Below are positions 12,256-53,109 of a DNA stretch of 64,000 bases, piece after piece (within the stretch, counting starts at the first letter, position 1; each line of letters starts with the position of its first letter). The position numbers were made by a program, and so were the translations under genes. The notes beneath the pieces are model-generated. The model was not told the origin of the DNA, made no database searches, and saw only the letters and a list, made by a program, of their open reading frames with translations. This DNA is from Owenia fusiformis (taxonomy: Eukaryota; Annelida; Polychaeta; Sabellida; Oweniidae): positions 26,758,740-26,822,739 of the forward strand of contig CAIIXF020000009.1 in NCBI GenBank assembly GCA_903813345.2, written 5' to 3'.

Positions 12256-15200
12256 ATGGCATCCTGGGAAAACACAGAGTCAAATGGACATTATGATTTT
12301 GGCATCCTATATGAAGAAGACTATGATGAGGATATGGCAGTAAAAATTACGGAATATTTAGAAACTCAGGGAAAGATTAGAGGTTATGTTGCTGGTAGAG
12401 ATGCTAATTTAGGAGAAAGTATTTTTGTGAGCTTACAAATTATTGCGGAAAGGACTAAATTCACATTGATACTGTTGACAAAAAAATTCTTGGACAGTGC
12501 ACAAGGGTTGAATCGTTTAAAGCAACAAGTGACACAATTCTCTAAAGCAGAATCGGGAAAGTTGGATACCATCATACCTATTATGTTTGGAATTAATGAG
12601 ACAGAAATTCCTTTTGAACTGAAGGGGATACCTGCTGTGAGGTTAGATGAGGGAAAGATGGAGGCGTGTTGTCAGGAGGTGTTACAGGTAAGTCTTAGGC
12701 AGTAATATGATGTCACAGAATACCAGAGGATAAACTAGTTTTAAGGGTCAATAAAGGTCCAGAAGGTGTTGTAATGTAGTAACAGTAATAGCGTTAAGTA
12801 CAATTCCATACTAGATGTCATATACTATCACATCTTCGATTTCTGTATACCTTTGATGTCCACAGTATGCGACCCAGGCAGCTGTGGTGAAACAAGCCAG
12901 ATACAGACATCAAAGGGAGTGTGCTAAATTCAATGCCCCGTGTGGAAATTGAACACAGGACCTTCCAGTTCTGAGTATGATGCTCTACCCCTGAGCCATT
13001 AGACTTAAGTCAACACAGCTGTGCTGTAGTAGCAACTTGTATCCATGGTCATTACACATGTTTAAATAAGTATATGATGTATAGATGTGTGTTTGAAATC
13101 AGAACAAATTTGTATGTGGTACCCTTTTAGCCAAATGAGTACATGTATGCAATTGTTTACCTTGTACCTTTCCATTCCTAGTTTCCTTTGGAAGAATATA
13201 AAAAAAGATTCTCTTTTTATGGCAAAATTATGAAATCATGTTCTATTAAAGGTGATGGAGAAAGGTTCCAACAAGAAGGAGTTTCTTGCTGGTATCCCTG
13301 GACCAAGTCCTGTTAGAGGTAAGATTTAAGTCTACATCATCTCATCATTTGTCTCGGTAAGGGAGAGGGGTATGGCATAATTGGGAATTTAGATTTTATC
13401 ATTTTCTTGATGGGGAATTTTAGGGAACAATACAGTGATCTTCTGAGCATTAGAGCAACTGTACATAGATAGATCACTGCAATAACCTATACATAGGGGT
13501 TATGCACTTGGAGGTTTTGGATACAGATCCCAAGGGCTATACATGTACAATTCTTCCCTAGGGCCCGAAGAAATATTGTATATGTCAAGGGATTTTTCCT
13601 GTATCAAAACCAACCATGCATAACTGTTGTATTATGAGGTTTGAAATAATTGCACGCAGTACTTGAGCATCCAAACCAGTTTTCTTTGCAGTGTGTTCAT
13701 TTTCTGTGTTTACTTAGAATCCATCCACATTATTTAAATCTTGAATTTTCTCCATTTGCCTGTCATCATTGTCTTTTGTTTAGTTCAGTACTGAAATAGT
13801 AATGACGTGAATTCCCGGGTCATGATATATAGCCATCGTATGTCCAAGAGAACGACTGGAGTTGAATACATGTGAGGGACATATGAAATTTATTCACCTG
13901 GATATGGAATATATTCCCCAGTTCATTTGTCCCTGAAACCTTATCAGGTATGGAATACAGGCTTTGTATAAAAAACCTCCTACCTCATACCCACCTACCC
14001 TCCTGTGGAACATGATACAGTCATTGAAGGGTTCAATTTTAAAGTTTATTAAATCTCAAAATAGCTCAAATTATTAATATTTGTACAATTCCAGCTTCAT
14101 TTTATGACGAGACGGATGACAGATCCATTAATAAAGGCATATGGATGCATTTTAATGTGTAATGACCCGAGGGCGCCCCAGGGGAATAAATAACTAACGA
14201 CCGCGAGCATAGGTCCAACAAGCCAGATAAAGAAATTGAAAGAAAGTGTGCTGAATTCGATGCCCCGAGTGGGAATCGAACCTAGCTGGGATGTAGTAGC
14301 AACTTGCCATCAAGGGTCGTTACAAATGCATCTATAATTCATCATAAACTAAGATTTAATAAACTAAGATCTTTAAAATTGAACCCTTCAAAGACTTTAT
14401 CATGTCCCACGTACGTGGGTATGAGGTAGGAGGTTTTTTATACAAAGCCTGGAATACAGATAAGGGTTATGCACTAGGAGGTTTTGGATACAGGGTTTAT
14501 CCCAAAGGAAATTTGTGTATTTCTCGAGGGACCACTTCAATAAGGAAGAGATCACTTTAGCTTTGTCATATTTTCCAGATCTCCGCAGCATAACTCTGGA
14601 TATAGCAAGATGTCTTGATAAGGAAGACACAAACAGAGCTAAACTGCTGCTGTGGGACCATGTCAGTGCACCTAAAAAATCCAAACTGCTGAAGGTTGAA
14701 AACGGACTAGGGCTCATGGATTTTATGGCACAGCAAGGTCTTATAACAGACAAGGAATACAGCTATAGTCTCCTCCATGAAGTCTTAAAGAAAATGGGCA
14801 AGAAAGATCTCGTTCAAATCTTGCAGCAGAATATTGGATCCAAGCTTACTGTTAATGATCAGATTTCGCCATTCCGTAAATTACTCTATGAGTGTACATT
14901 ACATTTAGAAAAAGCTCCCGGACAAATTAATTTGTTGAAGAACCTACTGATCCCTTTAAAAATGGCGGGAGATGATTTCACTGCCTTTGAGTTGGTATTG
15001 CAACTTGAAATGATGGATAAACTTGATGATTTAAAAAAGAACCATTATGTTTCATGGGATGGATTACTGCTTGATATAGCACACAAACTTCAGGAGAAAT
15101 GCCCCGATATCAAAATAAGAGATTTTCTCCAAGCAGCTGTTCAACACATTGACTTTTCAAATCTGGACTCTGAACAATATCCATTGACTGCAAACACAGG

Positions 15201-18200
15201 ACTATTGCCTCAAGAAACACCATCCAACATTCCTGGCAAAAATGGGTCTGCTGTGGAGACAAAAGATGAGGATCTTACATCAAACATCCAGTATGAGAAG
15301 ATAAGTGCAATGGAAATGAAACAATACATCAAACAGTCGCCCTGTATTGGGAAGGGAGGTTTTGGAAAAGTTTACAAAGGTAAAAAGCTTTTCAATTCAA
15401 ATCTACAAATACACTATGTATGTAACCACAAGTGCCAAAGAGGAAATACCAAAATGTTGCAAAATACACAGTATGTAAAACATATAAACATATAAGTGAA
15501 AATATTTTAAAATTGCTCTTTTTTATTTATTTATATTTGCACGCCAATGTGTCTTTTGCAGAACAAGGGTGTTTAGGGGCCAACATAATTGAAAATGATC
15601 AAAGTTAAAGATTACATCTACTGTGAATGTATGGTGCAAAACTTTTAAGAAAAACAGGATTGGTCCCCACATTAGCATGGGCATTGATATTTTGGGATCA
15701 CCTCATTATACCGACGCGCATTATACCGAATGGTATTACACCGACACGCATTATACCGAAAACCAATATACTGATGCGCGTTGTACCGAAAACCCTTAAC
15801 AGAAGATGGTAGATCATTATGATAAGTATTATTTAAAATCATTCACGTTAAGAAGACCAGGCAAAAAGAGCAACAGAATTTGGGATTCATCATGGTTCAA
15901 GGGAAACTTAAAGAAAGCAGCAAACAACGCGTTGTATGCGTTGTCCAAAAAATATTTATCCCTTACATAAGTATAATGCAACATACATTTAATCTCAATT
16001 CAGTTATATATTTTTTACATTTTAAGCCCGATTCTCTGCCCTCGTGAATGAATCCTTTCAGTTTGACCTGGCTGGACAACATGGAATAAGTGTTAAAATT
16101 TTGGCAACTGTTTTTTTAAAAATAGCTCCATTTTCGAAGATTGATTAATCAGACATCTAATGAACATTATAGGCATATAAATATATCACTTTTAAGTCAC
16201 ACAGGAAAACTTTTCTGTACTGGCTATGCACATCGGTATTATGGCATTCAGTATAATGCCTTTCGGTACAATGCGCATCAGTATAATGGGTTTCACTATA
16301 ACAAAGCCCAATATTTTGACCAACCAATTGTTTTACTTGTAGGCTGCAAAAAGTACAGGAATGTTGAGGTGGCAATAAAGGTATCTCATGATAATGCATC
16401 TAGGATTGCTAATTCAGATTCTGACAAACAGTTCCAAATGGTGAGTTCATTTCCCTCTAAATTATTTCAATTTATTTGATTTATGTATGTTTAAATGTAT
16501 GATAGATATACAAACATAAAAAATTAAAGATAAGCATGTGTTCCACATTTGGTACCTTGGCATATTTATACATCTGCTATTATAAATATTAGGTCTAATC
16601 ACATGGATGTGAATAATGTCTTCATTGTAGGAATTACAGACAGCTCCTATCAAGAACCCTTTTGTAGTGCCAATATTTGCAGTAACTCAATTAATAGGGT
16701 GAGCAGTTTATTATTTGCAGTAAAGAAATAGAGTAAGCAGTCTGTAAAATTATTTAATGGAATGAAACTTGGCCAGGGTATAGCAAAACCTATTCTCTGT
16801 CTATCCATACATCATTTGTTTTGATTACTTGAGTATGAGGGGACTGTTTTTGTTCATATTGTATTGAATGATAAACTAATACGTAAAATAATATATGTAC
16901 AGTGTTACCTAGTTGTGTACAGCATGACTTATAACATGAACCACTACTATACATACTGTATTATTTTCGTTTCAGGTAATTTTCAAAAAACTGTTTAATA
17001 ATTTTCATCTGCACTCATAGACTTATAGTGCATATACATGTTCTTCATTTAAAGCATTTAAATTCTTCATAATTTTCAGACAACCATACTGCATAATGTA
17101 TCCTTACATGGAGGGCGGAGACTTGGAGAATCGTTTATTCCAGAAGAATGGATCCCAGAAAGGAGTGTTGACATGGAAAGAGAGGGTTCAGATTGCCTAC
17201 CATGTGTCTCAAGGTCTACTATGCTATCATACTGTAGTACCAGATGTCAGGTAAGAGAGAAAGAATTGAGTGATTGCATTTAGTCATAAACTCCAATGTA
17301 CTCCAAAGGAATCCCACGGGGACCTTATGGGTCAGTTTCATATGTCATGTTCTTTCTTTCCAAACAGTACTGTATTCATGTTTGTTATGTTTTTTTCTTG
17401 TGTGTCCTGTAAGCTTTTTTTGTACTTTCCCTTTGGCACTTGCGCTACTTATTCATAGCTTTTACAGGGGACTAGTTGGGACTTAATGGGACATGATTCT
17501 AGTGTAAAAAAAATTGAAGGGCAACTATAGTGAATAAATACAGTTTTAGATTGTCTATACTGTACGTTTCAGGGAAAAGCCAATTCTACACCGTGATGTC
17601 AAACCTGGCAATATTCTCCTAGACAAACTAGGAAATGCCTGTCTCTCAGACCCTAGTTTAGCAAAGGAAGTAGATGAAGCCAAGTCCAGCGTAACAGCTC
17701 CTGGGATGGGTGGTACTCCAGGCTATATAGATCCTGATATTGCAAGTCGCTTTATTAAGGATGGGCAAAAGTTCAAGTTTTATGAGAGGAATGATGTTTA
17801 TAGTTTTGGCATAGGTAAGAGCTACTACAGTAGATCATACTAATATCATAGGCATGTCCAGGCCAAAGGCAGATGAGGCAAGTGTTACACCAATATTTTA
17901 GACTTTGTATTAAAAAACTGTAATTTGTACCCATGTACAGTCTTTGAAGGGTTCAATTTTATAACTTTAAAAGATTATCCAATCTTAGTTACTTCTAACT
18001 TAGATGAACTAATGTACTCATAGTATTTATAGATTTGAAATCTGTCTAGTCAAAGAAAGATATATGTAGGTAAAGTCATAAAATTCATAAAAGTTCAAAA
18101 TAGCACCATTCAAAGACACGTTCAGTATAGGGAAAATCTACGCTAAATTATGTTTAAATATGTTGGGGATTTGCCAAATGGAATTCTGTGTTTCATTTTG

Positions 18201-21200
18201 TTATGTCACCACCAAAAAGTGGTGACATATTGTTATGGTCTCGGTTTTTTTTTACAGCGGTCGGCGAATGGCAGTTGGTGGTTGGTGATCGGCATCTGTA
18301 ACAAATTCTTACAACTTCCAATAACTTAACGAATACTGTTTAGACTGACTTCAATTTTTTTCAAAATCATCTACATGTTTTCAGAAGTTCAAATCTGACA
18401 TTATATTTAAGATTTGTCCTTCAATGACCTTTTCAAGGTCAAATAAAGATCAAAAAGGTATTTTTCAAATCATCTACAAGTTATCAGGAGTTCAAATCTG
18501 ACTTTAGATTTGAGATTTGACCTTATGAAGGTCAAAAAAGGTTTTTTTCAACTTGCTTCAAATTGACCAATTGTTTTCATAATCATCTACAAGTTCTCAA
18601 CAGTTCAAATCTAAGATTGTAAGCAACTACCAACATTTTGTCATGTTCACACCGGAATAGCCTGACTACGGTAAAGTCAGATACCGTTGTCACAAATGGC
18701 GGACATAACCGTCGGTTCAACTGTTTAATCACTTAGTCCTCATTTCCTGGGATTTTATCATTGCTAATTCTGTGCATGCATTAAGATCTTGTGATAATGT
18801 ATCATATGAAATCCCATTTTGGATCAAATTGGGTCGTGAATCGCCACAATATAGCGTCTTCAATATCATCAATGACAACGGAATCTGAATTTGAGTAATT
18901 TAAAAAGACACGGCATATGGTAATTACAGTGTCCGTTGTCCTGTATCTCTTTTTGTTCGGTTAAATTAAAGACTTTATTTCAATGGTAGAACATTGTTAA
19001 CTGTACCAGGTCGTTCAATAAGTTCACGGAAAAATGCTCTCATGTCAAAGATTCTTGATATTTTCCCATAAAATTTTCACACAATGTTTAAAAAATACTT
19101 TCTGATTGATTCTTAAAATCTCAGCATCTCTAATTAGATTGGTCAAAAATAAGGGTTACTATGGTAACTTGACTTTTGGGTAGGCGGGGCACTTTATACG
19201 TCACACAATTTACCATTACAGAAATCTATCAATATGTGCAAAGGAAGGATCCTTATTTTTTTATTTGTTCTTATTCAAATTACAAATCTTTGAGGGAAAA
19301 TTGATGTTCATTGTTTTCACGAACATTTCTGAAATTGTGCTAGTCAATGCTGTACCAGTGGACCAGAAAATCAACAAAGTAATGGTATGGTAAGTTGATT
19401 AAAACTTCCATTCAGCCAAACTCTAAATTTTTCCATCAGAATTATCCAGCCCATCACACTGCTAATATTGTGCAGGAAACCATCACCAAACCATGGCAAA
19501 ATAGATGGCAAAGCTGCCCCAAGTTACAAACTCTCCAGATGAGACAACTTTGATTTTGCTGTTTCCACTAGGATCAGCTAAGAGGTGCACTTTATGAAAC
19601 AATGAAACTACTTTCGACTGCAGTCCAGATTGCCCTTAAACAAGTTTTCCAGATGGCTTCAGAGCATTGTCTCGTCAATGGCTTGAATGCAACCTACTGT
19701 GCATTAAACATGAGGGAGAATATTTCTAAAACCTTATGGGACAATAGTTTTTACTATCATTACATAAGTAATATCATGTGCAAGTAGAAAGCGGAGAAGA
19801 AATTCATGTGATATACTCATAAATTGCCTACTATTCTGTTGTTTTTCTAATGAATAATGTGACGTAAAAAGTGCCCCGCCTACCCAAAAGTCAAGTTACC
19901 ATAGTAACCCTTATTTTTGACCAATCAAATAAGAGTTGCTGATATTTTCAGAATCAATCAGAAAGTATTTTTCATACATTGTGTAAAAATTTCATGAGAA
20001 AATATCAAAAATCCTTGAAATGAGAGCGTTTTTCCGTGAACTTATTGAACGACCTGGTACAATGAGTATTTAGACACTTTGATTGATTGTTGTTCCAAAT
20101 GAATCTAGTCTAGTTGCTCTATTAAACATAAAGTTCATGAAAAAATCTAATTGAAGCAACGGTTATGTCCGCCATTTGTGACAACATTATCTGACTTTAC
20201 CGTTGTCAGGCTATTCGGAGGTGATGTTAATGCCTTGTTAAATCACAGCAAGGGTAACAATGATTTTAGTCTCAGGGATCATAAATTTAGCCCAACACAC
20301 AAAAGTGTAATTGTTTCCTCAACTGTGGATGATGATTCCCAATTGAATGATGGGAGAGTGGCACACCCATAAAGAGACAAAGTTGTAATGCAACCTAAAT
20401 GTGGCAATATAGTCATACCTTTAAGACGACTTCCTGGAAGTCCCCAGCAAAAGAAAAACAATTTTAGTGTAGATTGCTTCTAGTGAACGAGTCTTCAATA
20501 GTACAATTTTGATGAAGGATAAAATAGCAAAGATAAACAATTTTGCAATTTTGGCTTTATTTTATGACTAGACAAATGTAAGATCTATAAGACGTACTCG
20601 TACATGTCTAGGCATATGAGTGCATTAATGCATCTACAATTCAGCATTGACGGAGATCATAAACTTAATAAATAAAAACCTTCAAAGACTGTATTATGCC
20701 CCACATATGTGAGTAACTGGGAACGAGGTGCAACATTTTTTGTACAAAGCCGATATTTTCCTGAAAAAACATGGCCACTGTTTTACTGTACCTGAAAATG
20801 ATGTCCAGCAGTAGATTTATATCCTCTTTTATATTAAATTTTCTTCAGCTGTTAAGATTTGCCTTGGTTATTACATTTCTACTAAGACCCTTCTCTGCTT
20901 GTGAATGATCATTTCTTGTTGCCCCAGCATTTGTGCAGAGATTACATGCCATTTTCACAACAATATGCCACTAACTACTTTTCATGCTGTAATTCCAAGA
21001 ACTTGCTGTTAAAATATTGCATTAAATAAGAAGATTGGAAAAGCATGGCATTCTTGCATCTGATTCTTGCTATAATTGAAGTTACCAATTGATTTCTGTT
21101 AGATGTTACACCTTATTCAGACTAAAACTATGTTCTCTTGTGATTTCAGTGATGCTACAACTGTTGCTGAACCAAGGTCCATTCATAGATCAAAAACAAA

Positions 21201-24200
21201 TTGTTGAATATTTGAAAGATGAACATATTTTGGATTTTGGAGCACCCCTCAGCCAAAATGTTCATAATTTAGCCAGTCATACGGCAAAGGTATTCAAAAA
21301 TCCTACTTTATGGGTTGTTCTTTTTATCAAATATACTTTCAACAAAGTATATACTTCTTAGACTTGAATGTAGGATTGATAAGTGCTTAATAGCAAATAG
21401 CAATATGATATTAATACAAACCACATGTACCATAATTAATCAAATTAGAGATGCTGATGTTTTAAGAACCAAATAGAAAGTACTTTTGTACATTGTGTGA
21501 AAATTTCATGAGAAAATATCAAAAACTTTGAAATGAGAGCATTTTTCCGTGAACTTATTGAACGACCTGGTACTTACAAAGCAGCACCTTCAAGGAATGG
21601 TTATTCCAGGGGTTAAATCCTTTTAAACAGATTGCTGCAAACAGACTCAAATGTATCAATTGGGACATAAACATGTAACTTTTGTTCTAGATGAGTTCAG
21701 AGTTAATGGATAATAAAGAGTTTTGTGAGCTGATCCTAGGTGCTATTCATGCAGATACAAAACAGAGGTTGCCTCTTCAAGACATTTCTAAGCGCCTACA
21801 GGTCAGTTGGTATACATTTACAAGCTCATTTATTCAATTCATGTTTTAAGTCTTTTGTAAAGTTCTGGTTTGTATGACAAAAAGTCTAGTAGGTATTATA
21901 CAAATTATTCTGCACATAAAACTAAACCTTCTCTTTAGTATTGCTCATATTTAAAGACTCTGATCTTTTGTGTGATTAATTCAGATTTACTTTACCTGAC
22001 AAGTGCTATATTGTTGTCAGCTTGCACTTGTACAAAATCTTGTCAGCAAGAAAACAAGAAGAAAGTTTTTGATTTATTAAACTTAAAATCTGCAGATGCA
22101 AAAATCTACTTCCGCCAAGATCTCATTATCCATTCTGATTAAATTTATGACAGCCATGTTGAATTTTAAGGTTGTTACTTATTTCAAGGACGTCAACCTG
22201 ACGTTGACGTCCTTGCTTATTTCCAGTGAAAAAATTAGCACTTTGTGTTTTATTCAATCATCTCAGCACAACTTCCCAAAATGTGTTTATTCTTATTCTC
22301 CCAACTGTTTTAGGTTCTTTGTGAGAAAGTTGGACAAACGGCTTACAATTACGAAACAAATAAAGAATCACTGGAATTGTGTGTTGGCTGCAAATTGAAT
22401 AAAGTTGGTTAGTTAACATTGTCATCAAGCAACAAAACCTGAGTTAGATTGAATAAAATATCTGAACACTTAGATAAACCATTAATCGTAATTCAACAAA
22501 ACCTGCATTGCACTCATCCCAACCATGAAAATTTCATGAATGCATATTTTTGTTCTTGGTTGTTATTCACTTTCTATCAGAAACAAAACAAAATATGGTA
22601 TAATGTGTACATGCCATATTGCCATAAGGCGTCTCATGTAAATTTCAAAATGAATAGATAATAATTTTAGGTAGAAAAGATGTGAACTGGGCCATTATAA
22701 CCAATGCAAAACCAAGTCTGAGTAAAATCAATTGTGGAAAAAATTGATTGTGGATCATTAATGAAAAACAGTTGTGAAGAAAAACACAAGTGAACAAAAT
22801 ACTGTACTCCCGGTAATTTTTCGCGCTACTATACTTTGCGCTTTTCTTGAGTTTTGGAAAATTTGCGAAATATAATAGCCGCGAAATTCCTCCAGTTTTA
22901 ATTCGCTCAATTTGATCGTCGCAAAATTCCAAGGAAATTCCTGAGGATTTCAATGTTGACAATACTTTCGTCCAATGCTTGGCGATAATAGGTAAAAACG
23001 TGACATTGAGTTTTGAAAAAGAGAAATTAGACAAGAGATTGTTCTGACTGTATTAAAATGAACATTCTAACGAAAAGGCTTAATAAGAAGCGAAATTGGG
23101 TGAAAGAACAACCATGGTTGATATCAAAGTTGAAAGAGTGATCCTGTATGACAAATCCACGGAGATTAATAGCCGCGAAAGTTCAAAAAACTGAAAATTA
23201 GCGAAATATAATAGCTGAGAAATTTCAAAATGCCAAAAACGTGAAATATGATAGAGTCAAATATAAGTCTGAGTACAGTATGCTGTACTGAGCAGTGTAC
23301 CTATTTTTGTATAAGTTGACAGTAAGTACTGATGAATATTTCTTTTTCAGCCAAATACTTAAGTTTGAGATCAGCAAATTGTGATAATCCTGCATCTCCT
23401 TGCTGTCTATACTGCAAGGATTGCTACATGTTGGCATATAGAAACCCCTTGGTTTGCCCCACTCATGGACCTGCAGAGCCACCTATAGGTAATTCATTAA
23501 AGCTTGTATGTCAACATAGAGTGGAAGAGGAAAAGGGGGCAGAATAATATTCTGGGAATGAAGTTGGAATATATTTTGAGATTTGATGAATCTGTTCCCC
23601 CATTAAATGAAATGCTATATAGTGAATAAATAAATGTCAATATTAGTTTGGGTGGTGCTAGAAAACCATTTCTTTTTATATATAAGAAATAATTCCGATT
23701 GGATGAATGTAAAACTCCTTTTAGGGATGCCACTCGATGATCTTGATGACTTGCAACTTGTGATGCAGGTTGATAACCCATTAACAATTTTTAATATTTT
23801 GTCACTAGGGATATACATAGCTTTTTTCAGAAAACTTAATCTGTGAAAATCAAAGTTCTTCTTGTCAAACATGGTGCACATAATTCAATTATGTCATCAA
23901 ATTAATGAAAAGTAAAGTCCTAATGATTGAATATGAAGATCTCCTAAAATCACATTAAAAACAAGACTTAAAGATTTAAAAGCTTTGTAGTAATTTAAAG
24001 GCAGAATCTGATCTATAGGGGGTGACAAAATTACAAGCAACATGTTAAATTGACCTAATAATCTATTCCTTACAATATCAAATACAATATCTGCCAAAAG
24101 ATTCACAATATCTTATAAATTGGTGAAGTTATTAATGATTCAAAGTGCAAAAATGAGTTAAAAATGATTAGATTCTCCCAAATAATAAGAATGATAACCA

Positions 24201-27200
24201 TTCTTATAGAAAATAATACATTATTGTAAAAATCTTTAGTTTTCCTGGAATTAAGTATTCACTTTTGTGATTTTTAGACAATAGGCATGACTAGGAATGA
24301 CATTAGCCAAAAATACTGTAAAATTTAAATAATTTTTTGTTTACCCTGCTCGCTATATCTGATACTCTCTTTAAACCCTCTATTCAGAACACTGATATAC
24401 ATACTGCATTTTAGGTCACAAGAACACATATGCTGTTGTGGTGGGAGCTTATCACTTTGGAATAGGCCAATACATATTTGCTAGAGATGCACTCGGTATT
24501 TCCAATGCCCTCTCTGACCACAGGATCATAGGAGGACTTAGGTAAAACATCTATGTCTATTACTGCTATTGCTGCATTAAGTGGCTATACATGTGCCTAT
24601 TAATTTATTGTTTGATTATGGTGCAATCTCTGTTTTTTTGAAAATGTTGAGGGAAGGTAAATGTACTTAGGTGCATCAAAAAGTTTTGCAATTTTGACTC
24701 TATCACAATAACTATATTGAGTTATGTCATCATATTTGGCACATACATTGATCATACATTTGTGGACATACCTGTAAAATTTGGAGATTGGATCTTCATT
24801 TTTAAAGAAAATATGGTTGTCATAGCAACATAAGATGCTTAAGATGATTAGCAATTTGGAGGCCACACATCGCTTCTTCAGCACTTTGGTGATAATGGTT
24901 TGGCAAGAAACAAATGAGATATCCAGTATTTTACTGATTTCGTCAATACTACTATTATAAGTAATATGTCCATCCTGTTCAATAAGTTCATTGATTCTTC
25001 TAGAGTTAAAGATGTCTTAGGTCTACCTTTCCCTGGCTTATCTGAGAGAGTTTTATGCTTTCCACTTTTGAAGACATTATACCACCTCCACAGTGTAGTA
25101 TCGTCTTTGGCCTCATCACCAAATGCACCTTTGACAATGTCATATATCTCTTTAAGTGCATTTAATAAGGTTTCTGTGTTTCCATTTTTGAATTTTACTT
25201 GTTGTAGACGTATCAGTCATTGTCCATTAGCCGATAGAGAAAATTTACTTGAAACAAAATGGCTGCCAGAATTCAAAAGTTCTCCCCACAAGCTACACCA
25301 AAATGTGAATCCATATGTCATAAGTCTTGTCTGATGTCATCAGAACAATAAGAAATAGAAAAAGGGGTTTGAAAAGACACACAAACCTGTAATTTAGGTG
25401 ACTGAATCATAATACAGGGTGTTAAAAAAACGCAACCCAAGGAAATCGCTATATCTTGGAAAATACTCATCCAATTATGTTCATATTTTCAGGAAATAAA
25501 GAAGAGACTGTGTATGTATAGCTCCTGTAAATGGTTACTTGTAAAACATGATGCCTTGGACACCTGCTCAAAAGACAGTTGTACTAGGAAAATACGAAAA
25601 ACACAGCCAGGGATGACTGCAACCTCAAAAAAATTAAATAACTTTCTAACCATAGTGTTTTGGCACTTCAAATTTGGCACAAATCATCTTCATGCACTGT
25701 ATGGTAAATCTGTAGAGTGAAATCAAAATCACTTCAGGGACTTTACAGTCATGGTTGAAATGCTTTCAAATCGCAGTCAAACGCCCTGGTTCAGGGAGAC
25801 TTAAGAAGGCATTTTGACCATGACTGTAAAGTCCCAGGAGTGATTTTGATGAAACTCTACAAATTCACCACACATTGAATGTGGATAATTTGTGCTAAAT
25901 CTGAAGTGCCAAAATACCATGGTTAGAAAGTTAATGGTTTTATTGCTGTGGCAGTCACCTCTGACTGCGTTTTCATGTTTTCCTAGAACAACTGTCATTT
26001 AAGCATGTGTCCAAGGCATCATGTTTTACAACTAACTGACAACAGGAGCTATACATACACAGCCTCTTCTTTCTTTTCCTGAAAAAATGAACATAATTGA
26101 ATTAGTATTTTTCAAGATATAGTGATTTTCCATTCGCGTTTTTCGTAATTTGCTAGTACAACTGTCTTTTGAGCAAGTGTCCAAGACATCATGTTTTACA
26201 ACTAACTAACAACAGGGGCTATACATACACAGTCTCTTCTTTCTTTCCTGAAAATATGAACATAATTGGATGAGTATTTTCCAAGATATAGCGATTTCCT
26301 TGGGTTGCGTTTTTTTTGAACACCCTGTGATAACACAATATAAAATAATTTAAAATTAACATATTCTAGGTGGAACCGAGTACCCTCGGGTCCTGTTACC
26401 ATAGTAACCATATCTTTTTAACCAATCGCAGATGAGCAATCAAATCGTGACACATTATGTATAGATATATGGTATATAATTGTGCCAAATTTCAAATCAA
26501 AGCTATATGTAGAACTTGAGATAGTATCAAATTTGCAAAACTTTTTGATGCACCCAAGTATGTTCGGTAATGGTCATCATGAAATAAAATCCCAGTTACC
26601 TTCCTTTAAGCGATGGAAGATATTGTTGAACTGTAGCACCTATGCACAATATGTGAACAATTGATCATACTCCAGAGATTACATGTCAATAAGCCTGGTT
26701 TATGGATAAATGTATGGACATTACTTTCACTGGATACTGACCAGTGATAGTGTCACTCCAGGGTCAACAAAAATCAAATTAAAGCCACCATAATCAGACT
26801 TGCCAACCTAAAATGAAAAATTTTCGGGAGATTTAAAAAAAATTGCGGTACTTTTACGGGAGTTTTTTTCAAAATCCGGTAGTTTTTGGGGGAGTTTTTT
26901 GAAAAAAAGTGGGAGTTTTTACGGTAAATTTTGAAAAAACTGGGGTTTTTACGGAATATCTTTTAAAAAAGGTATTTTTCGTGGTAAATTTTAAAAAACG
27001 TGACTTTCTACGGAAGATTTCAGAAAAAACGGGAGTTATTGCGGTAGGTTCTGAAAAAACTGGAGTTTTTACGGTAGGTTTTGAAAAAACGGTAATTTTT
27101 ACGGCAGATTTAAAAAAAAACTGGAGTTTTTTCCGGTGGATTTCTGAAAAAAACGGGAGTTTTTAAGGTAGATTTCTGAAAAAACTGGAGTTTTTACAGC

Positions 27201-30200
27201 AGATTTTGAGAAAACGGGAGTTATTACGGTAGATTCCTGAAAAAAGGGAATTTTTTCTTAAGATTTTGAAAAAACTGGAGTTTTTACAGTAGATTTTGAA
27301 AGAACAGGAGTTCTTACGCTAGGTTTCTGAAAAAAATGGTGTTTTTACGGTAGATTTTGAATTAAACGTGAGTTTTTACGGTAGATTTTGAGAAAACGGG
27401 AGTTTTTACGGTATTAAATCCAGCAATTTAATTGGTTGAAATTATTATGACGCATGCGCAGTTAATAAATTAATTAGAAACTTATAATCTAAGATAGATG
27501 TCACTTACGTTCATTATTTCACAGCAGTCCCTACCCATAATGCGCCTTATATTGCGGGAATATTTTGTTTAGCGCCATTTAAAAACAAAATGTATTCTCC
27601 CGACAGAAGTATGACAGAATATGAACTGCCCCCCCCCCCATTTGTGGGCATTTGGTGTGCAAACTTATACCGAACTGATCGTAGAAAAGCAATTTGAATC
27701 ATGGGAATAAAGTACTTTTAAGTTATTTATGAAAGTACTGATAGTGAACCATGGGAGCCAATCCTTCTTGGAGTAAAAGAAGCGTGCCTGCAATAATCAA
27801 GGTCACAAATTTGTCAAATTCCTTTTAAATACGGGAGATTTCGACAGCAAAAAACAGAGATTTTACGGGAGTTATACCAAGAATACGGGAGATTTTACGG
27901 GAGTTATACCAGAAAACGGAAGATTTTACAGGAGTTATACCAAGAATATGGGAGATTTTACAGGAGTTATACCAGAATACGGGAGATTTTACAGGAGAAT
28001 TCAGCAAAAATATGGGAGATTTTACAGCCATATTTTTAAAAAAAACTACGGGAGGTTTTAGTAGAAATACTAAGTTTACAGATTCCTGAAAAAAGGGAAT
28101 TTTTTCTTAAGATTTTGAAAAAACTGGAGTTTTTACAGTAGATTTTGAAAGAACAGGAGTTCTTACGGTAGGTTTCTGAAAAAAATGGTGTTTTTACGGT
28201 AGATTTTGAATTAAACGTGAGTTTTTACGGTAGATTTTGAGAAAACGGGAGTTTTTACGGTATTAAATCCAGCAATTTAATTGGTTGAAATTATTATGAC
28301 GCATGCGCAGTTAATAAATTAATTAGAAACTTATAATCTTAGATAGATGTCACTTACGTTCATTATTTCACAGCAGTCCCTACCCATAATGCGCCTTATA
28401 TTGCGGGAATATTTTGTTTAGCGCCATTTAAAAACAAAATGTATTCTCCCGACAGAAGTATGACAGAATATGAACTGCCCCCCCCCCATTTGTGGACATT
28501 TGGTGTGCAAACTTATACCGAACTGATCGTAGAAAAGCAATTTGAATCATGGGAATAAAGTACTTTTAAGTTATTTATGAAAGTACTGATAGTGAACCAT
28601 GGGAGCCAATCCTTCTTGGAGTAAAAGAAGCGTGCCTGCAATAATCAAGGTCACAAATTTGTCAAATTCCTTTTAAATACGGGAGATTTCGACAGCAAAA
28701 AACAGAGATTTTACGGGAGTTATACCAAGAATACGGGAGATTTTACGGGAGTTATACCAGAAAACGGAAGATTTTACAGGAGTTATACCAAGAATATGGG
28801 AGATTTTACAGGAGTTATACCAGAATACGGGAGATTTTACAGGAGAATTCAGCAAAAATATGGGAGATTTTACAGCCATATTTTTAAAAAAAATTACGGG
28901 AGGTTTTAGTAGAAATACTAAGTTTACAGGAGTTTTACGGGAGAAAACGGTATGGGAGTTTGGTATTTTTTACGGAAAAACAAAAAATTTACGGGAGATT
29001 CCCATAAAAAAAACGGGAGGTTGGCAAGTCTGAACAGAAAAGAAGGTTTGCATGAAAATGATGATACAAGTGAAACCTTTATCAGATTGATAAACAATCC
29101 TGCCCATGCTCAAGCTTTGCTTGATCTAGATCCTCACAAAAATATAAATACTCTCCTTATTATTATGAAGAAAAAATAATGGACTATTTAAAAGAATTAT
29201 CCTCAAAACGTATGATTAGAATATTTGTGCCTTACAAATGAAATGTTTTGATAATGTTTTATAAATCCATTAAAAATTCAAATTTGTGCCAAAGTAATTA
29301 TTTATGGATTAATGATTAATTTTATCTAATTTTGAGATTTTCTCTTTTCAGGGAGGGTAAAAATCTGTTCACCTATTCACCAGCACTTACCACAGCAAAA
29401 CCAACATCCTCTAATATCTTGGATAGAATACGCCAGATCAAAGAGGAAGTGGCCAACCTTGAGGATGCAACATTTATATTTTACTATTCTGGCCATTGCT
29501 GTAATGGAACAGAACTTGTCCTCAAAGAGGGAAGTGATGTTCTCTCCCAGGATCAACTTTGTGAATTGTTTAGCGATTTGAATGTGGTTGAATTGTTAGT
29601 GGTGATGGACTGTTGCTATGCTGCATCCTTTGATACTCTATCAAGAAGCTCATCTACATCATCAACTGATCACCATGCCAACAAATGTCAATCTGAAATA
29701 CCTATCCTTGTGAAAGATACCAATGGAGAAGCCACACATAAAGCTCGTCCTGAAGGACACGATGGGACTGACGGTGCACAAAATAAACCAGGACCCAACC
29801 AATCAGACAGTTCAAGATTTTGCCAGGTGCAATGGTCAGCTTCTGGTCCAGATCAGCAAGCTCGAGGATTTGTAAATGAATACAGTATGTTTACAAAACA
29901 TTTTATAGCTGGTCTACAGAGTGGGGTACAGTGTGCTCTAAACAAAAAGAATTGCAAACCTTGTGAAAAATTAAGAAAATTATCAGAGGTTCATGAATGT
30001 GTAACTTTACCAAACCTGGGGGATTATGTCTCTGATCATATTGCTATGGAGGCACACGACAAAGAACTTTCCCCACAGCAACCACAAACACATGGATCAA
30101 TGAGAGAGATCTTCAAGATGGCATATTCTAACAGCAAGCAATTATACTATGAATATCCTTGCAGACATGGAAGGGACAACCTTGGTAAAGCGCGTATTGA

Positions 30201-31197
30201 AAGAATACATGAAGATTTCGAAGTTCTGAAGAGCCAAATATGGAGAAGTATACAAGGTATGTAAACTCTTTCATTTGATCTGTTTAGATTACTGACTATT
30301 AATGATAATGTTTATAATCTCAATCGAATTCTGATTGGTAAAAGAGAAGTTGATAATTTTGACTGTAAAATAATTTAACAGTGAGTTCATTAACCATTAA
30401 AGGGTTTCATGAAAATTAAAATATCATGATGAATATGGGAGAGCCCATTTACATTAAGTGTTTGGCAGACAATTAATATAAAATACACTTTTACTATAGT
30501 ATACAATGAGGTGAACTTAAAATTTTATTTTAGGGTTCATATCAAGATGCATCACTAAAGATGATCTTATAATATCCTCTGACAAATGTCCCATCTCAGA
30601 CATTGCGAGATTCAACAATTGTAAGGACCGAGGGTCTGCAATAGAGGTCTATATCTTAGATGAACTGAAGCAACTTACTCCAGACCATGCTGTGTTCTTA
30701 AGAGATGGTGACTATGAAGCTGTGATCAAGGTGTTGGATAGCTGGAAGGTTTTTGTGGAGCAACGTGACTTGGAATGTGGGCTATTAGAGGGAGTGAAGT
30801 TACATAAGCTGCCACTCAATCAACAGGTAATCAATCATACAATTGTTGCTGTCATATGTCATATATGTAAACTTGAGATTGTAGACAATGCATTGGTAGA
30901 TCAATTGTACATGTTGAATGCAATTTCGCTACTCCCCACTTTCTAAATGTCCATATTACTCAGAATATTGATTTTCCATTTCAGGAGTGTTCTGATGGGG
31001 TTGCTGGAAGGTTCCAAGTGTCTGTTCCCAAGGACACGAGTATTGACTTCAACGCCACCTGTTGGGAGGAACTAGAGAATCACAGTTGTTTTGATTTAAT
31101 TGAGATTTTGCGTATGTGTCAGCAAAAACATGCAGCTATAAACATTCAAGTGCAGTCGGATGGTTATATCAGATTTGAAATGATTTTACGTCACTAG
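12256..31197 (+). CDS. TIR / DED-DED / IRAK-like kinase / RING-like / caspase-like fusion protein
   Basis: Fifteen exons: 12256-12687, 13252-13318, 14579-15379, 16343-16440, 16631-16698, 17080-17250, 17573-17814, 21150-21289, 21691-21801, 22314-22407, 23351-23488, 24415-24541, 29352-30256, 30534-30826, 30985-31197. Every junction keeps phase, and the total is 3900 nt, or 1299 residues plus stop. Domains by approximate residue: TIR 1-144; DED-like 167-249 and 264-357; kinase 420-710 (G-loop IGKGGFGKVYKG, Lys446, Glu467, Tyr496 gatekeeper as in IRAKs, HRDVKPGN 552-559); Cys-rich RING-like 733-780; caspase-like C14 789-1110 with YYSGHC (His878) and DCCYA (Cys918); unique C-terminus with no recognised domain. 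Odd points: the DFG position reads DPS and the APE position reads DPD, so kinase activity is uncertain. Likely role (inference): cytosolic sensor-adaptor in Toll/cell-death signalling. No signal peptide or membrane segment. Possible poly(A) signal at 31734-31739. Confidence 0.85.
12880..13060 (-). repeat. tRNA-derived SINE in intron 1 of the fusion gene
   Basis: On the minus strand, TGGCTCAGGGGTAGAGC resembles a tRNA A box and GTGTTCAATTTCC a B box. The tail phrases CAAGCCAGATA, AGTGTGCTAAATTCAATG and GTAGTAGCAACTTG recur in a second copy at about 14205-14335. Two copies with the same order support a SINE family. Confidence 0.65.
13950..14459. repeat. Palindromic MITE-like element with SINE-like core
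   Basis: The left end (GGAATACAGGCTTTGTATAA, then CCTCCTACCTCATACCCAC, then GGGTTCAATTTTAAAG) is repeated in inverted orientation at the right end (CTTTAAAATTGAACCC through GGAGGTTTTTTATACAAAGC). Its centre holds a SINE-related piece (14205-14335). Related part-copies lie near 17940-18120 and 20520-20750, all in introns of the same gene. Confidence 0.75.
15660..16330. repeat. Palindromic element with repeated ATTATACCGA motifs
   Basis: The left arm holds several near-copies of CATTATACCGA (about 15703-15790). The right arm holds the reverse complement TCGGTATTATG / TCAGTATAATG (about 16231-16290). Outer blocks GGGCATTGATATTTTGG and CCCAATATTTTGACC also pair. It sits between kinase exons encoding the G-loop and the VAIK lysine, just upstream of the 16343 acceptor. 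Confidence 0.65.
17940..18120. repeat. Part-copy of the intronic palindromic family
   Basis: Contains CAGTCTTTGAAGGGTTCAATTTTA and, about 170 nt on, an inverted TTCAAAGA block. Both match arms of the element at 13950-14459. Confidence 0.5.
18187..18640. repeat. Dispersed intronic repeat with GTCACCACC palindrome head
   Basis: Begins with ATGTCACCACCAAAAAGTGGTGACAT, a short perfect palindrome. Tandem-like blocks follow around CATCTACAAGTT and AGGTCAAA (three imperfect repeats). It lies directly next to the nested element that starts at 18647. Class unknown. Confidence 0.45.
18647..20224. mobile_element. Outer TIR element, host of a nested mariner-type element
   Basis: The left arm at 18647-18712 (GGTAAAGTCAGATACCGTTG, then TCACAAATGGCGGACATAACC) is repeated inverted at 20157-20224 (GGTTATGTCCGCCATTTGTG, then TCTGACTTTACCGTTGTCAG). 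This gives a 1.58-kb unit with terminal inverted repeats of about 65 bp. A second element (19006-20057) lies inside it. No transposase was seen for the outer unit. Confidence 0.75.
19006..20057. mobile_element. Non-autonomous mariner-type element, flanked by TA
   Basis: Ends are CCAGGTCGTTCAATAAGTTC and its inverse at 20057, flanked by TA on both sides as in Tc1/mariner target sites. Subterminal inverted repeats also pair (GGTAGGCGGGGCACTTT with AAAGTGCCCCGCCTACC). The centre keeps only short frames, so it is defective. A truncated right end of the same family is at 21430-21572. Confidence 0.8.
20520..20750. repeat. Degraded copy of the intronic palindromic family
   Basis: Shares ACCTTCAAAGACTGTATTATG, CCCACATATGTG and TTTTTGTACAAAGCC blocks with the element at 13950-14459. 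One arm only is clear. Confidence 0.5.
21430..21572. repeat. Solo right end of the 19006-20057 mariner family
   Basis: AAATTTCATGAGAAAATATC, TGAAATGAGAGCATTTTTCC and GTGAACTTATTGAACGACCT appear in the same order as at the right end of the element ending at 20057. No left end is nearby, so this is a truncated copy between two kinase exons. Confidence 0.75.
22187..22215. repeat. Short perfect hairpin
   Basis: AAGGACGTCAA and TTGACGTCCTT pair around CCTGACG. It is intronic and probably a small mobile-element remnant. Confidence 0.6.
22800..23270. repeat. Degraded repeat with GCGAAATATAATAGCCGCGAA motif
   Basis: The phrase GCGAAATATAATAGC followed by GCGAAA occurs near 22864-22886, and related pieces occur near 23170-23225. 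The CG content is locally high within an AT-rich intron. The block lies between the two exons of the Cys-rich module. Class unknown. Confidence 0.45.
24666..26558 (-). mobile_element. Mariner-type element with broken transposase, carrying a second insertion
   Basis: The terminal inverted repeat starts CTTAGGTGCATCAAAAAGTT at 24666 and pairs with the right end at 26558. TA flanks both sides (24664-24665 and 26559-26560). On the minus strand, about 25250-24970 encodes a mariner-like helix-turn-helix piece containing ALKEIYDIVKGAFGDEAKDD, then LWRWYNVFKSGKH, then KPGKGRP, typical of mariner N-termini. The DDE catalytic part was not found. Position 25415-26327 is occupied by another palindromic element. 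Confidence 0.8.
25415..26327. mobile_element. Foldback element with CAGGGTGTT ends nested in the mariner copy
   Basis: The left end is CAGGGTGTTAAAAAAACGCA followed by ACCCAAGGAAATCGCTATAT. The same sequence returns inverted at the right end. The inverted pairing extends over most of the element (for example TAGCTCCTGTAA.. with ..AACAGGAGCTATA), with the centre near 25790. The right arm carries an extra direct repeat of about 160 bp (about 25990-26140 and 26155-26300). No transposase frame. Confidence 0.8.
26796..29032. mobile_element. TIR-bounded element packed with ACGGGAGTTTT minisatellite
   Basis: CAGACTTGCCAACCT at the left and AGGTTGGCAAGTCTG at the right form a 15-bp perfect terminal inverted repeat. 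The inside is mostly tandem units of 35-40 bp around ACGGGAGTTTTTACGGTAG (left part, plus sense) and ACGGGAGATTTTACGGGAG (right part). A segment of about 848 bp is duplicated head to tail (27230-28078 and 28079-28925). The CAG...GCCAA ends suggest a hAT-like origin, but no transposase or clear 8-bp target duplication was found. It fills the long intron before the caspase exon. Confidence 0.75.
27230..28925. repeat. 848-bp direct tandem duplication inside the satellite element
   Basis: Positions offset by 848 are almost identical, including a non-repetitive stretch with GACGCATGCGCAGTTAATAA and a C-run of slightly different length (nine or ten C versus eight or nine). The two copies differ at very few sites, so the duplication is young. 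Confidence 0.9.
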
Positions 31198-31733
31198 GAC
31201 ATGTAGGACAGGACATAAAAATTAATGAAACTCCATATTAGGTCTGTATATCACTCTACTATACCTTGCATTTGGTGTACATGAGCAACCCATTTGGCTT
31301 ATCAGTAATGATAATGTGATTTGTTTTTATTTGTCAGATCCTTATTAAGGTTTATCGGATGACTGTTAGATGTTAATGAGGTACTTTCAAAAATATATTA
31401 AATAATTCAATTAGACAAACATAGTATCTTATGCATTTCTAGGGGTTAGGTATAGTAGAGTGTATATGAGTACAGCCATATTGAATGGACTGGATATTAC
31501 ATGTAATTTGCAGTAGTTACTGGCACAGTTGGCATTGTTTTTTGCAACAAAAACTGAAACCGACGGACTTTATCTTAAAGATTATGCAGCAAAAATACAG
31601 TACAATGTGTATACATGTATGTATATGAATGTGTATAGTTTTACAATATGGATGCCCCATTAATCATTTGCACAGGACAAACAATTAATTTAGATATGTT
31701 AAAGTTATTTTGTTTATATTTTGACTGATTTAC

Positions 31734-31739
31734 AATAAA
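31734..31739 (+). terminator. Possible poly(A) signal of the fusion gene
   Basis: AATAAA, 537 nt after the stop codon at 31197, inside TTTACAATAAATTAGG. The duplicate copy keeps the same hexamer near 35472. No other evidence for transcript end. Confidence 0.4.
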
Positions 31740-32829
31740 TTAGGACGTGGTGAAGTAGAAGTTGCATGGCCTGAAAATGTTATCCATGAGGGTATAATTT
31801 CCATGTATGGAGCTTTTTGTGTAAACATCCCCAATCTGCCATGTACAGCAATGTACAGTGTTATTCTAGTATCACCTGTTTTGAACAGCGTAGAGTACTG
31901 TTTTTACAGCGGTGTACGGCACTTTACATGAAAATAAGTTTTAAATTTAATATCTACAAATATAGGAACTGAACATAAATTTATAATAATGATATCATTT
32001 TTATTCTGTTTTATAATTATATACAGTACAGCACATAGGATACATGTATTTCCATGGAATGTGTACAGTTTGATAATAAAACTGAAACTGTCAGGGAATA
32101 CTTTGATTTTTGCTACATTACAGTCAATCTGTTAATGCATTTTTTGTTATGGATAAAATATTATATTTACATAACGCTATATACACTAAATAAAACAAAC
32201 GGTCATTTATTTTATACATGTTATAAGGTAAAAATGAATGCTAAATACAATCTGTACTGTCTCAGTATTAAAATGCCAGACTTTATATTAAAAGAAGTAC
32301 CATAATAAATGACTGAAAATGGACAAAACGCAAACACTTTTTATGTCAAGTACTGTATGTAAAAACTTCTATATATGAATCATAAGGGGGGCTGTCAAAA
32401 TATCAATGGTCAAATAATGCGGTATGCAGGACACATTAGACTAAATTAAACCATTGGATTAAAATGTCCATTTTCTTGCCCTTTGATGTTCAGCAGCCTT
32501 GAATGATTGGTACAGACCATGTGATGTATTAGAGTATTTTTCCCAACTCAAACTTTGATATTGATTGAAAGGTAGTTTTCAACACAGTTCAGATAAATTA
32601 ATACAACATGGTATCATTAATGAATTGATTAGTTTCACGCCTGATGTGACACTGAACTATATATATATTAAATTTTTTATATCACTTGTAAAAATATTTT
32701 CTTTTGGAAAATAATAATCCAAAAATTGCACAGAGCCCAGAATGGCACAACTCAAACAAGGAAATAAATGTTTTCATCATCAGATTCTATCAGATCATCA
32801 GATTCTATATTGAAATAACAGTAATACCT

Positions 32830-33146
32830 GGGGCAGTGAATTCATAAGATCCGCGATCCGATCCGGATAAATTTCGTCATGGTAATGATGCATTGTGGGA
32901 TTAATCCAGGGATTAATCCAAAAATCTGTGAATTTGTACGATCCTGGGATTAATCTCAGGATAAATCTAAATCCACCTCTTGAGGTGGATTACTTTTTGG
33001 ATAAATTTTATCCAAATTCCAATGCAAATTGGATAAATCTTGGGGATTCACCTCCCCAAATATTTATCAGATTAGTAATCCAAGATTTATCCAAAAGATA
33101 AAATTTATCCGGATTGGATTGGGGATCGTACGAATTCATGGCCCCT
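32830..33146. mobile_element. MITE present only in duplication copy A
   Basis: The ends pair as inverted repeats: GGGCAGTGAATTCATAAGAT with GATCGTACGAATTCATGGCC, and GATCCGGATAAATTT with AAATTTATCCGGAT. The inside holds repeated GGATTAATCC and GGATAAATC motifs. The equivalent site in copy B (about 36640) lacks the whole block. Confidence 0.8.
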
Positions 33147-34192: not shown

Positions 34193-37100
34193 ATATCATG
34201 ATGAATATTGGAGAGCCCATTTACATTAAGTGTTGGGTTATAACAAGGCAGACAATTAATATGTAATACACATTTACTATTGTACACAATGAGGTGAGCT
34301 TAAAAATTTTATTTTAGGGTTCATATCAAGATGCATCACTAAAGATGATCTTATACTATCCTCTGACAAATGTCCAATCTCAGACATTGCAAAATTCAAC
34401 AATTGTAAGGACCGAGGGTCTGCAATAGAAGTCTATATCTTAGATGAACTGAAGCAACTTACTCCAGTCCATGCTGTGTTCTTAGATGATGACTATGAAG
34501 CTGTGATCAAGGTGTTGGATAACTGGAAGGTTTTTGTGGAGCAACATGACTTGGAATGTGGGCTATTAGAGGGAGTGAAGTTACATAAGCTGCCACTGTC
34601 ATATATCATATATGTAAACTTGAGATTGTAGACAATGCATTGGTAGATCAATTGTACATGTTGAATGCAATTTCGCTACTCCCCACTTTCTAAATGTCCA
34701 TATTACTCAGAATATTGATTTTCCATTTCAGGAGTGTTCTGATGGGGTTGCTGGAAGGTTCAAAGTGTCTGTTCCCAAGGACAAGAGTATTGACTTCACT
34801 GCCACCTGTTGGGAGGAACTAGAGAATCACAGTTGTTTTGATTTAATTGAGATTTTGCGAATGTGTCAGCAAAAACATGCAGCTATAAACATTCAAGTGC
34901 AGTCGGATGGTTATATCAGATTTGAAATGATTTTACGTCACTAGGACATGTAGGACAGGACATAAAAATTAATGAAACTCCATATTAGGTCTGTATATCA
35001 CTCTACTATACCTTGCATTTGGTGTTCATGAGCAACTTATTTGGCTTATCAGTAATGATAATGTGATTATCGGATGGTTTATCGGATGACTGTTAGATGT
35101 TAATAAGGTACATTTTTACTTTCAAAAATATATTAAACAATTCAATTAGACAAACAGAGTATCTTATGCATTTCTAGGGGTTAGGTATAGTAGGGTGTAT
35201 ATAAGTACAGCCATATTGAATGGACTGGATATTACATGTAATTTGCAGTAGTTACTGGCACAGTTGGCATTGTTTTTTTGCAACAAAAACTGAAACCGAC
35301 GGACTTTATCTTAAAGATTATGCAGCAAAAATACAGTACAATGTGTATACATGTATGTATATGAATGTGTATAGTTTTACAATATGAATCCCTCATTAAT
35401 CATTTGCGCAGGACAAACAATTAATTTAGATATGTTAAAGTCATTTTGTTTATATTTTGACTGATTTACAATAAATTAGGACATGGTGAAGTAAAAGTTG
35501 CATGGCCTGAAAATGTTATCCATGAGGGCATAATTTCCAGTTTTTGAAAATATGTATGGAGCTTTTTGTGTAAATACATCCCCAATCTGCCCTGTACAGC
35601 GATGTACAGTTTTATTCTAGTATCACCTGTTTTGAACAGCGTAGAGTACTGTTTTTACAGCGCTGTACGGGACTTTACATGAAAATAAGTTTTAAATCTA
35701 AAAAAGTATGGCAAATTGATCCTTTACATGACATGCATGATGGCTAAAGTAGTTTTTAGGCAATGACCTAAATGACGGATATCTCATATATAAGAACTGA
35801 ACATAAATTTATAATAATGATATCATTTTTATTCTGTTTTATAATTATATACAGTACAGCACATAGGATACATGTATTTCCATGGAATGTGTACAGTTTG
35901 ATAATAAAACTGAAACTGTCAGGGAATACTTTGATTTTTGCTACATTACAGTCAATCTGTTAATGCATTTTTTGTTATGGATAAAATATTATATTTACAT
36001 AACGCTATTTACACTAAATAAACAAAAGGTCATTTATTTTATACATGTTATAAGGTAAAAATGAATGCCAAATACAATCTGTACTGTCTCAGTATTAAAA
36101 TGCCAGACTTTATATTAAAAGAAGTACCGTAATAAATGACTGAAAATGCACAAAACGCAAACACTTTTTATGTCAAGTACTGTATGTAAAAACTTCTATA
36201 TGAAGCATAAGGCTGGCTGTCAAAATATCGCTATATCAATGGTCAAATAATGCGGTATGCAGGACACATTAGACTAAATTAAACCATTGGATTACAATGT
36301 CCATTTTCTTGCCCTTTGATGCCCAGCAGCCTTGAATGATTGGTACAGACCATGTGATGTATGAGTTTTTTTTCAACTCAAACTTTGATATTGATTGAAA
36401 GGTAGTTTTTCAACACAGTTCAGATAAATTAATACAACATGGTATCATTAATGAATTGATTAGTTTCACGCCTGACGTGACACTGAACTATATATATTAA
36501 ATTTTTTTATATCACTTGTAAAAATATTTTCTTTTGGAAAATGATAATCCAAAAATTGCACACAGCCCAGAATGGCACAATTCAAACAAAGAAATGTGTT
36601 TTTCAACTAACTACATGTACATCAAATTCTATTTTGAAAACTTAAACCTCTGTAAAGGTGAAAAACTTTGATTCCACTTAACATGCTCCACTCAAGCGGT
36701 CAGTTTAAGATTAAGTCAAAGGGTCACTGGACTGTGAAATATATTCCACTTACTGAGGTGTTCACCTTATAGATGTGTTCAACTTGACAGATTATAATGT
36801 ATTTCAATATGTTGTAAGGTTTTTGAAAATGGGGCTCATGGGAAATTGAAAGTCAAACAGCCTCTTCAAAAGATCCCAGATTTTTGATTTTTTGGCATGT
36901 ATCTCTTATTCACGTACATTGATAGGCAACTCCATGTGGGAAAGGAAGGAGCTACCATACAGGAACAATTTTTGGAAAAATCAGGATTGAAATGTTTTGT
37001 AGATGAAATATCTAGAATGTTCATGTAACAAGGATAGCTAGCTGCACATAGACCTGATGCAATACAAACGAACCAACTATTTACCCTCCCATTTATATTA

Positions 37101-52755: not shown

Positions 52756-53109
52756 ATTATTGTAGCAAAGCGACACTGAAGCCTCGTTCAAATCATGTTG
52801 CCTGGTCATCAGAAGATTTTCTTAATAATGTGCTTCAAATGTAATATATTAGTCTGATTGAGTCTAACATGGAGTCCAATTTAGTCTGAGACGGTAATTT
52901 GTGGTTCTTGTGGCTTTTTATAATAGTTTAAAGTATTGTTTTAAATGATTTTATTAATTGAAATGGTTGTACAATGAAGATTGAAGAGATTTACTTAACT
53001 CAGAAATAATTTGTGGAAACCATTGACATTCATGAATAAGAGCAGCGGTTTAATTTAGTTTGATTTCTGTGGTTTTATTATAAAGAAATGCAATTAATAA
53101 TGGTATATA

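Follow-up and report, generated by a model that had tools for sequence, protein, structure and literature searches.

A predicted gene of the annelid Owenia fusiformis joining TIR and DED modules, an IRAK-like kinase and a non-classical C14 protease in one reading frame

In the known animal pathways, the TIR, the DED, the IRAK-type kinase and the protease are located on separate proteins. Amphioxus has "direct connection" genes, that is, TNFR-caspase, LRR-caspase, TIR-NACHT and TIR-SAM, several of which are proven by cDNA (PMC2575513). In marine invertebrates, variable architectures include Death-like domains together with a kinase or a caspase (PMC8195603), and the TIR proteins of invertebrates have also been treated (PMC6321704). 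Caspases, TIRs and kinases are further found in bacterial conflict systems, EACC1 included (PMC7159879). The order TIR-DED-kinase-Cys module-C14 was not found in word searches of an open-access full-text library, a body of text outside which most subscription-journal papers lie, and within this scope the view of the earlier note that no such protein has been described is upheld.

The DNA analyzed is a stretch of 64,000 nt from Owenia fusiformis (GCA_903813345.2, CAIIXF020000009.1:26,758,740-26,822,739, forward strand), hereafter the window. The gene occupies positions 12256-31197 (table 1). When the proposed model of 15 phase-compatible exons and 1299 codons was rebuilt from the DNA, it proved exact: the joined exons amount to 3,900 nt, that is, 1,299 codons plus stop, in a frame without conflict and with GT-AG at 14/14 introns. 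An alternative exon list, with an extra exon of 44 nt (23725-23768), exon 5 shorter by one base and no exon 10, produces in-frame stops. The frame therefore constrains the choice of exons, which is not free.

Table 1. Exons of the window gene and the duplicate of its last two exons (window positions)
Feature	Position	Strand	Content
Exon 1	12256..12687	+	Start codon and TIR, residues 1-144 (Pfam 23-133); TIR_2 28.2-28.6 bits
Exon 2	13252..13318	+	TIR end and linker, 145-166; phase-compatible
Exon 3	14579..15379	+	801-nt open frame with the DED (14587-14829), a second region of helices (14854-15165) and, from 15349 on, the glycine loop of the kinase
Exon 4	16343..16440	+	Kinase beta-3 Lys K446; aligned in paralog
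Exon 5	16631..16698	+	Kinase alphaC-beta4; aligned in paralog
Exon 6	17080..17250	+	Kinase hinge; Tyr496 at gatekeeper position
Exon 7	17573..17814	+	HRD (D554), N559, DPS for DFG (D572), GTPGY; Pkinase 3.8e-9 for its open frame
Exon 8	21150..21289	+	Kinase C-lobe; aligned in paralog
Exon 9	21691..21801	+	Kinase end; aligned in paralog
Exon 10	22314..22407	+	Cys/His module, first Cys pair (C733, C736)
Exon 11	23351..23488	+	Remainder of Cys/His module (C752-H780)
Exon 12	24415..24541	+	Start of C14 peptidase domain; aligned in paralog
Exon 13	29352..30256	+	C14 core, YYSGH (H878) and MDCC (C918), variable loop, then conserved part
Exon 14	30534..30826	+	C-terminal region without known domain; aligned in paralog
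Exon 15	30985..31197	+	C-terminal region and stop; aligned in paralog
Exon 14-15 duplicate	34303..34941	+	Exon 14 copy without donor

Several further features accompany the gene. The large intron 12 carries, at 26905-28906, a minisatellite of approximately 30 bp as well as a tandem duplication of 848-849 bp. In the same intron, a short open frame ending in a stop is found behind a splice-acceptor-like site at 29035-29176. As a candidate exon (approximately 29035-29176) it was rejected, since its frame ends in the stop and has no donor; nor is it needed, exon 12 being joined to exon 13 directly in frame here and in the paralog described below. A tandem duplication affects the 3' end of the gene together with its flank (30519-33715 and 34303-37214, with 93-99% identity in gapless pieces), and the duplicate of exons 14-15 is probably a remnant outside the gene. 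Further downstream, two copies of a repeat with inverted ends are located 6 kb apart (47108-48166 and 53105-54175, 95-96% identical). They show a weak match to a Mos1-type HTH (E=0.077, under the cut-off) and perhaps represent a DNA transposon. Rfam gave 0 matches.

The TIR assigned to the N-terminus is supported by its HMM, if barely. The TIR piece reaches 28.2 bits with TIR_2 (E=2.9e-6; cut-off 28), and the other TIR model, PF01582, remains under its cut-off (17.2 bits vs 21.3). When all 1,299 residues were scanned as one chain, TIR_2 was not listed and TIR scored 13.9 bits, under the cut-off. A profile of three TIR-like sequences matches TIRAP structures at 5.3e-5. TIR NADases of the SARM1 type have a catalytic Glu; at the column tentatively taken for this residue, the three TIR-like sequences (3/3) have Gln (Q91 in the window protein).

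The search of the genome with TIR_2 resulted in 147 matches at E<=0.01, of which 142 exceed the cut-off, and did not list the window gene. Similarly, neither this gene nor its paralog is among the 47 matches of the genome search with C14. Such lists are therefore lower bounds.

Outside the window, the N-terminal 424 residues match a single place at E<=0.01, a TIR on contig C4. It belongs to an intronless open frame of 377 codons (C4:7585092-7586222, L012:8092-9222, minus strand; 360 aa from the first Met), which is a TIR-Bcl-2 fusion with a TIR at E=1.3e-6 and a complete Bcl-2 match at E=2.9e-31. Its TIR has 45% identity to residues 13-152 of the window protein. On the plus strand of the same C4 stretch (L012:167-2065), a 633-aa open frame looks, by eye, like a retrotransposon reverse transcriptase. 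Another TIR-like open frame is located upstream of the gene (window 10236-10880); in an alignment of the three sequences it shares 23% identity with the window TIR, and it has no Pfam match.

The connection of TIR to DED is the least supported link of the predicted chain, its basis being the splice phase and one junction match. Exons 1-2 could form a small TIR gene of their own, followed by a kinase-protease gene beginning with the DED; a stop soon past the exon 1 donor (12703-12705), an ATG within exon 2 (13255) and the lack of a TIR found at the paralog would suit such a division. It is nevertheless unlikely. The donor after exon 1 is consensus-like and the phases fit, the alignment with the intronless TIR-Bcl-2 frame runs over the junction of exons 1 and 2, up to residue 152, and the first Met in the frame of exon 3 lies inside the DED, with none before it, so that the DED requires an upstream start exon.

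Unlike the TIR, the DED is tied to the kinase on the DNA itself, as both are within one open exon. The earlier note had described two DEDs, and the first of them holds. It exceeds the cut-off of 35.9 in the Pfam search of the genome (38.4 bits), and is under it when the piece is scanned by hmmscan (35.4 bits, E=1.3e-8) and in the whole-chain scan (31.3 bits). The TIR, DED and C14 pieces, each shuffled once, gave no match. The DED exon has no match in the genome outside the window at E<=10.

The second helical region could not be assigned to the DEDs. An HMM was built from 11 of the 18 DED matches of the genome (nine over the cut-off and two under it); the DED of the window gene itself and six matches of lower score were excluded. 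With this HMM, the first DED scored 23.8 bits and the second region 2.6 bits, below the best shuffle (7.7 bits; 986 of the 1,000 shuffles scored). The Pfam DED match is absent from this region, both in the piece and in the whole chain. A weak hint of the bacterial Death-like bDLD2 (E=0.074) is under the cut-off, and helices are present in a poor AlphaFold model. The single-sequence AlphaFold model of the DED exon, with a mean pLDDT of 50.5, is not usable, and Foldseek returned 449 matches for it at E<=10 and 0 at E<=0.001.

The kinase was called IRAK-like from the letters, and this is supported. Pkinase matches residues 421-706 at E=2.7e-28 in the whole-chain Pfam scan, and the domain has the catalytic residues K446, D554, N559 and D572. 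In the list of matches with solved structures (best 60 of 1141), SymRK (5e-25) and BRI1 (3.2e-22) are followed by other plant RLKs and then by IRAK4 (3.4e-18), with RIPK4 (6.9e-18) about as close as IRAK4. The Tyr at the gatekeeper position is a trait of IRAKs and RLKs. The N-terminal Death domain of the IRAK type was not found in the chain: there is only a weak match inside the DED (residues 225-251, E 0.023, 15.3 bits vs the cut-off of 22.6). Apart from the window gene and its paralog, the nearest kinase match of the genome has 30% identity (E=3.7e-8).

Between kinase and protease, the cysteines and histidine are arranged as C-x2-C-x15-C-x6-CC-x2-C-x2-C-x10-C-x2-H, with one occurrence in the window protein and one in the paralog. 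This module had been taken as RING-like, a description which is not supported: no profile of Pfam or NCBIfam matches it at E<=10, and its C3-x6-C4 spacing is longer than the RING rule permits. The Cys/His-rich module is probably zinc-binding.

For the protease, the piece of exons 12-13 matches Peptidase_C14 at E=1.5e-6 (28.5 bits vs the cut-off of 21.4), and the domain is missing from the matches listed for the full-length chain. The caspase-like protease of the earlier note is thus retained as a C14 domain with an H878/C918 dyad, but not as a classical caspase. The classical (C14A) motifs SHG and QACxG were not found in the window protease; its motifs are YYSGH and MDCC, and those of the genome's own caspases are SHG and QACQG/QACRG. 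The NCBIfam model caspase_w_EACC1 matches the window protease (2.9e-6, 26.9 bits) and its paralog (6e-8, 32.4 bits), both far below the 140-bit cut-off of the model, and matches neither two classical caspases of the same genome nor a shuffle. Since the bacterial model fits the family but not these two own caspases, and the motifs differ, the window protease is placed in C14 in the broad sense, outside the classical caspases.

Other comparisons of the protease gave no further relatives. Sequence searches of the C14 against solved structures matched no caspase, paracaspase or metacaspase. In hhalign, the profile of the two C14 domains, a shallow one like those it was set against, reached 0.7% with four own caspases, a value that the best of 100 column shuffles surpassed in score. 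Of the prokaryote contigs scanned with the alignment of the two proteases, 49 stretches fit the pattern and 0 were confirmed. The paralog's C14 has no Pfam match, and the single-sequence AlphaFold model of the C14 exon (mean pLDDT 38.1) is not usable.

Motifs in the style of YSGH...DxC are taken here to be those of C14B. If the protease is of this style, it may cleave after Arg/Lys, by analogy to orthocaspases, which cleave after positively charged residues (PMC6426788).

A query with the protease against the 498-Mb genome, which has contigs of 32-62 Mb among those consulted here, found, besides the window and the tandem copy, one further place, on contig C10, where a weak match to the kinase end (E=0.015) and one to the Cys module precede the protease match in order. 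In the 28 kb of C10 examined, the paralog consists of an ankyrin exon of 1,127 aa (Pfam Ank_2 2.6e-121) and 13 exons with kinase, Cys module, C14 and tail. Its exon ends were placed by eye with the window gene as a guide, and 13/13 introns are GT-AG. The link of the ankyrin exon to the kinase is predicted from splice sites and phase. The TIR and DED parts have no match on C10.

The cores of the two genes show 49.6% identity over 962 alignment columns, and the phase agrees at 12/12 corresponding introns (1,0,2,2,1,0,0,1,1,2,1,0). The kinase Lys, the HRD Asp, the Asn, the DPS Asp and the C14 His and Cys are kept in both. For the 913 codon pairs compared, pN amounts to 0.32 and pS, which is saturated, to 0.80. 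The dN values are 0.34 for the kinase, 0.27 for the Cys module (exons 10-11), the lowest, 0.43 for C14 and 0.53 for the tail, a region (exons 14-15) where no Pfam match was found at E<=10. These values point to strong purifying selection on the kinase-to-tail core. The recurrence of this half, in order, in a second gene is more than chance, and the two genes look like a small family with one kinase-protease core and at least two front ends.

These results bear directly on the claim that TIR, DEDs, kinase, RING-like module and protease belong to one gene. The continuous frame of TIR, DED, kinase and protease is supported, with the co-linear paralog backing the part from kinase to protease; the second DED and the RING are not supported. 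Two separate genes between kinase and tail are unlikely, because the paralog repeats both the order and the intron phases. Both genes have an in-frame ATG just 5' of the acceptor of exon 11 (window 23332; C10 local 19061, L010:9061), and a shorter, protease-only product beginning there is possible. This ATG, and the fact that sequence alone shows no transcript, would also agree with two neighboring genes, one for TIR, DED and kinase (exons 1-9) and the other for Cys module and C14 (exons 10 or 11-15). Such an arrangement is nonetheless highly improbable, as order and phases recur on another contig, the Cys module of either gene is divided between exon 10 and exon 11 and keeps the same Cys spacing over this junction, and exon 10 encodes no Met.

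A single gene is compatible with more than one role. The product could be a scaffold similar to MALT1 or IRAK and not an executor, with a C14 that trims regulators or is inactive and a DPS kinase that is weak or dead. In agreement with this, DFG reads DPS in the window kinase and in the paralog alike, the protease has the Y-S-G-H and D-x-C style without QACxG, and the bacterial caspase model fits it but not two classical caspases of the same genome; moreover, MALT1 unites scaffold and C14 protease functions (PMC5978004). On the other hand, the core catalytic residues are retained in both paralogs. We consider the scaffold role a real, although less likely, possibility.

The interpretation that we favor, with modest confidence, is that of one gene for a cytosolic single-chain signalling protein, the core of which is a reusable output unit. 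The chain would consist of a TIR-DED adaptor head, an IRAK/Pelle-type kinase, the Cys/His module, a C14 in the style of metacaspases and orthocaspases and the conserved tail. The TIR head would join a TIR receptor or adaptor assembly, for which the 147 TIR_2 matches of the genome offer possible partners, and the DED would assist the clustering of the chain. Clustered kinases could then phosphorylate one another, and the C14 domains, brought close in the cluster, would be switched on to cleave either their own chain or signalling proteins in the vicinity. In the sister gene, input would pass through the ankyrin repeats into the same kinase-to-tail core. We infer that the window gene would be transcribed as a single chain located in the cytosol, that this chain would cluster and act as kinase and protease, and that the outcome would be cell death or immune signalling.

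The idea of a self-contained device from sensor/adaptor to execution is accordingly to be narrowed. Adaptor modules, kinase and protease are indeed on one chain. There is no sensor domain, and as TIR and DED are adaptor modules, the input has to come from another protein. As the protease falls outside the classical caspases, Asp-specific "execution" is not implied.

In a broader view, to which we give an even chance, the two genes would define a new animal family. A constant core of kinase, zinc module, metacaspase-type protease and tail would be equipped with swappable heads (TIR-DED or about 1,000 residues of ankyrin), so that immune assembly, phosphorylation and proteolysis follow each other in one molecule, and the protease would be nearer to the caspase-like effectors of bacterial conflict systems than to animal caspases. 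If this is true, the chain and its head-swapped sister would show directly which signalling steps are coupled, and would allow asking whether a kinase switches on a C14 protease within the same molecule. Besides MALT1, there would then be another animal signalling protein with a C14 protease of the non-classical kind.

Compared with known systems, the kinase resembles the group of IRAK4, Pelle and plant RLKs, of which plant RLKs and IRAK4 are among the best 60 of 1141 solved-structure matches. IRAKs possess a Death domain and not TIR-DED, and the window protein differs from these kinases by DPS instead of DFG and by its C-terminal protease. With caspase-8, in which a tandem DED precedes the caspase, it shares a DED and a C14 on one chain, but lacks the classical caspase motif; on contig C7 of the same genome, two DED matches (23666685 and 23667519) are located about 6 kb before a C14 locus (23674038) with QACRG. 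MALT1 is similar in its death-fold N-terminus and C14 (PMC5978004). In contrast to MALT1 and the paracaspases, the window protein has a kinase and a TIR, and no Ig domain is found among its Pfam matches.

The RIPK2 homologs of lancelets (LRR-TIR-Kinase) have TIR and kinase on one chain, as the window gene does, and differ in that DED, Cys module and protease are not named for them in the available text of the source (PMC11747288). Among the amphioxus fusions in the accessible part of PMC2575513, none combines TIR, DED, kinase and C14, and the TNFR- and LRR-caspases have QACXG, which is absent from the window protease. They resemble the predicted window gene in joining receptor or adaptor modules to an apoptosis protease or a signalling domain on one chain (PMC2575513). 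Single-chain fusions of immune and death modules are thus already known from amphioxus, and the domain order predicted for the Owenia gene would add to them.
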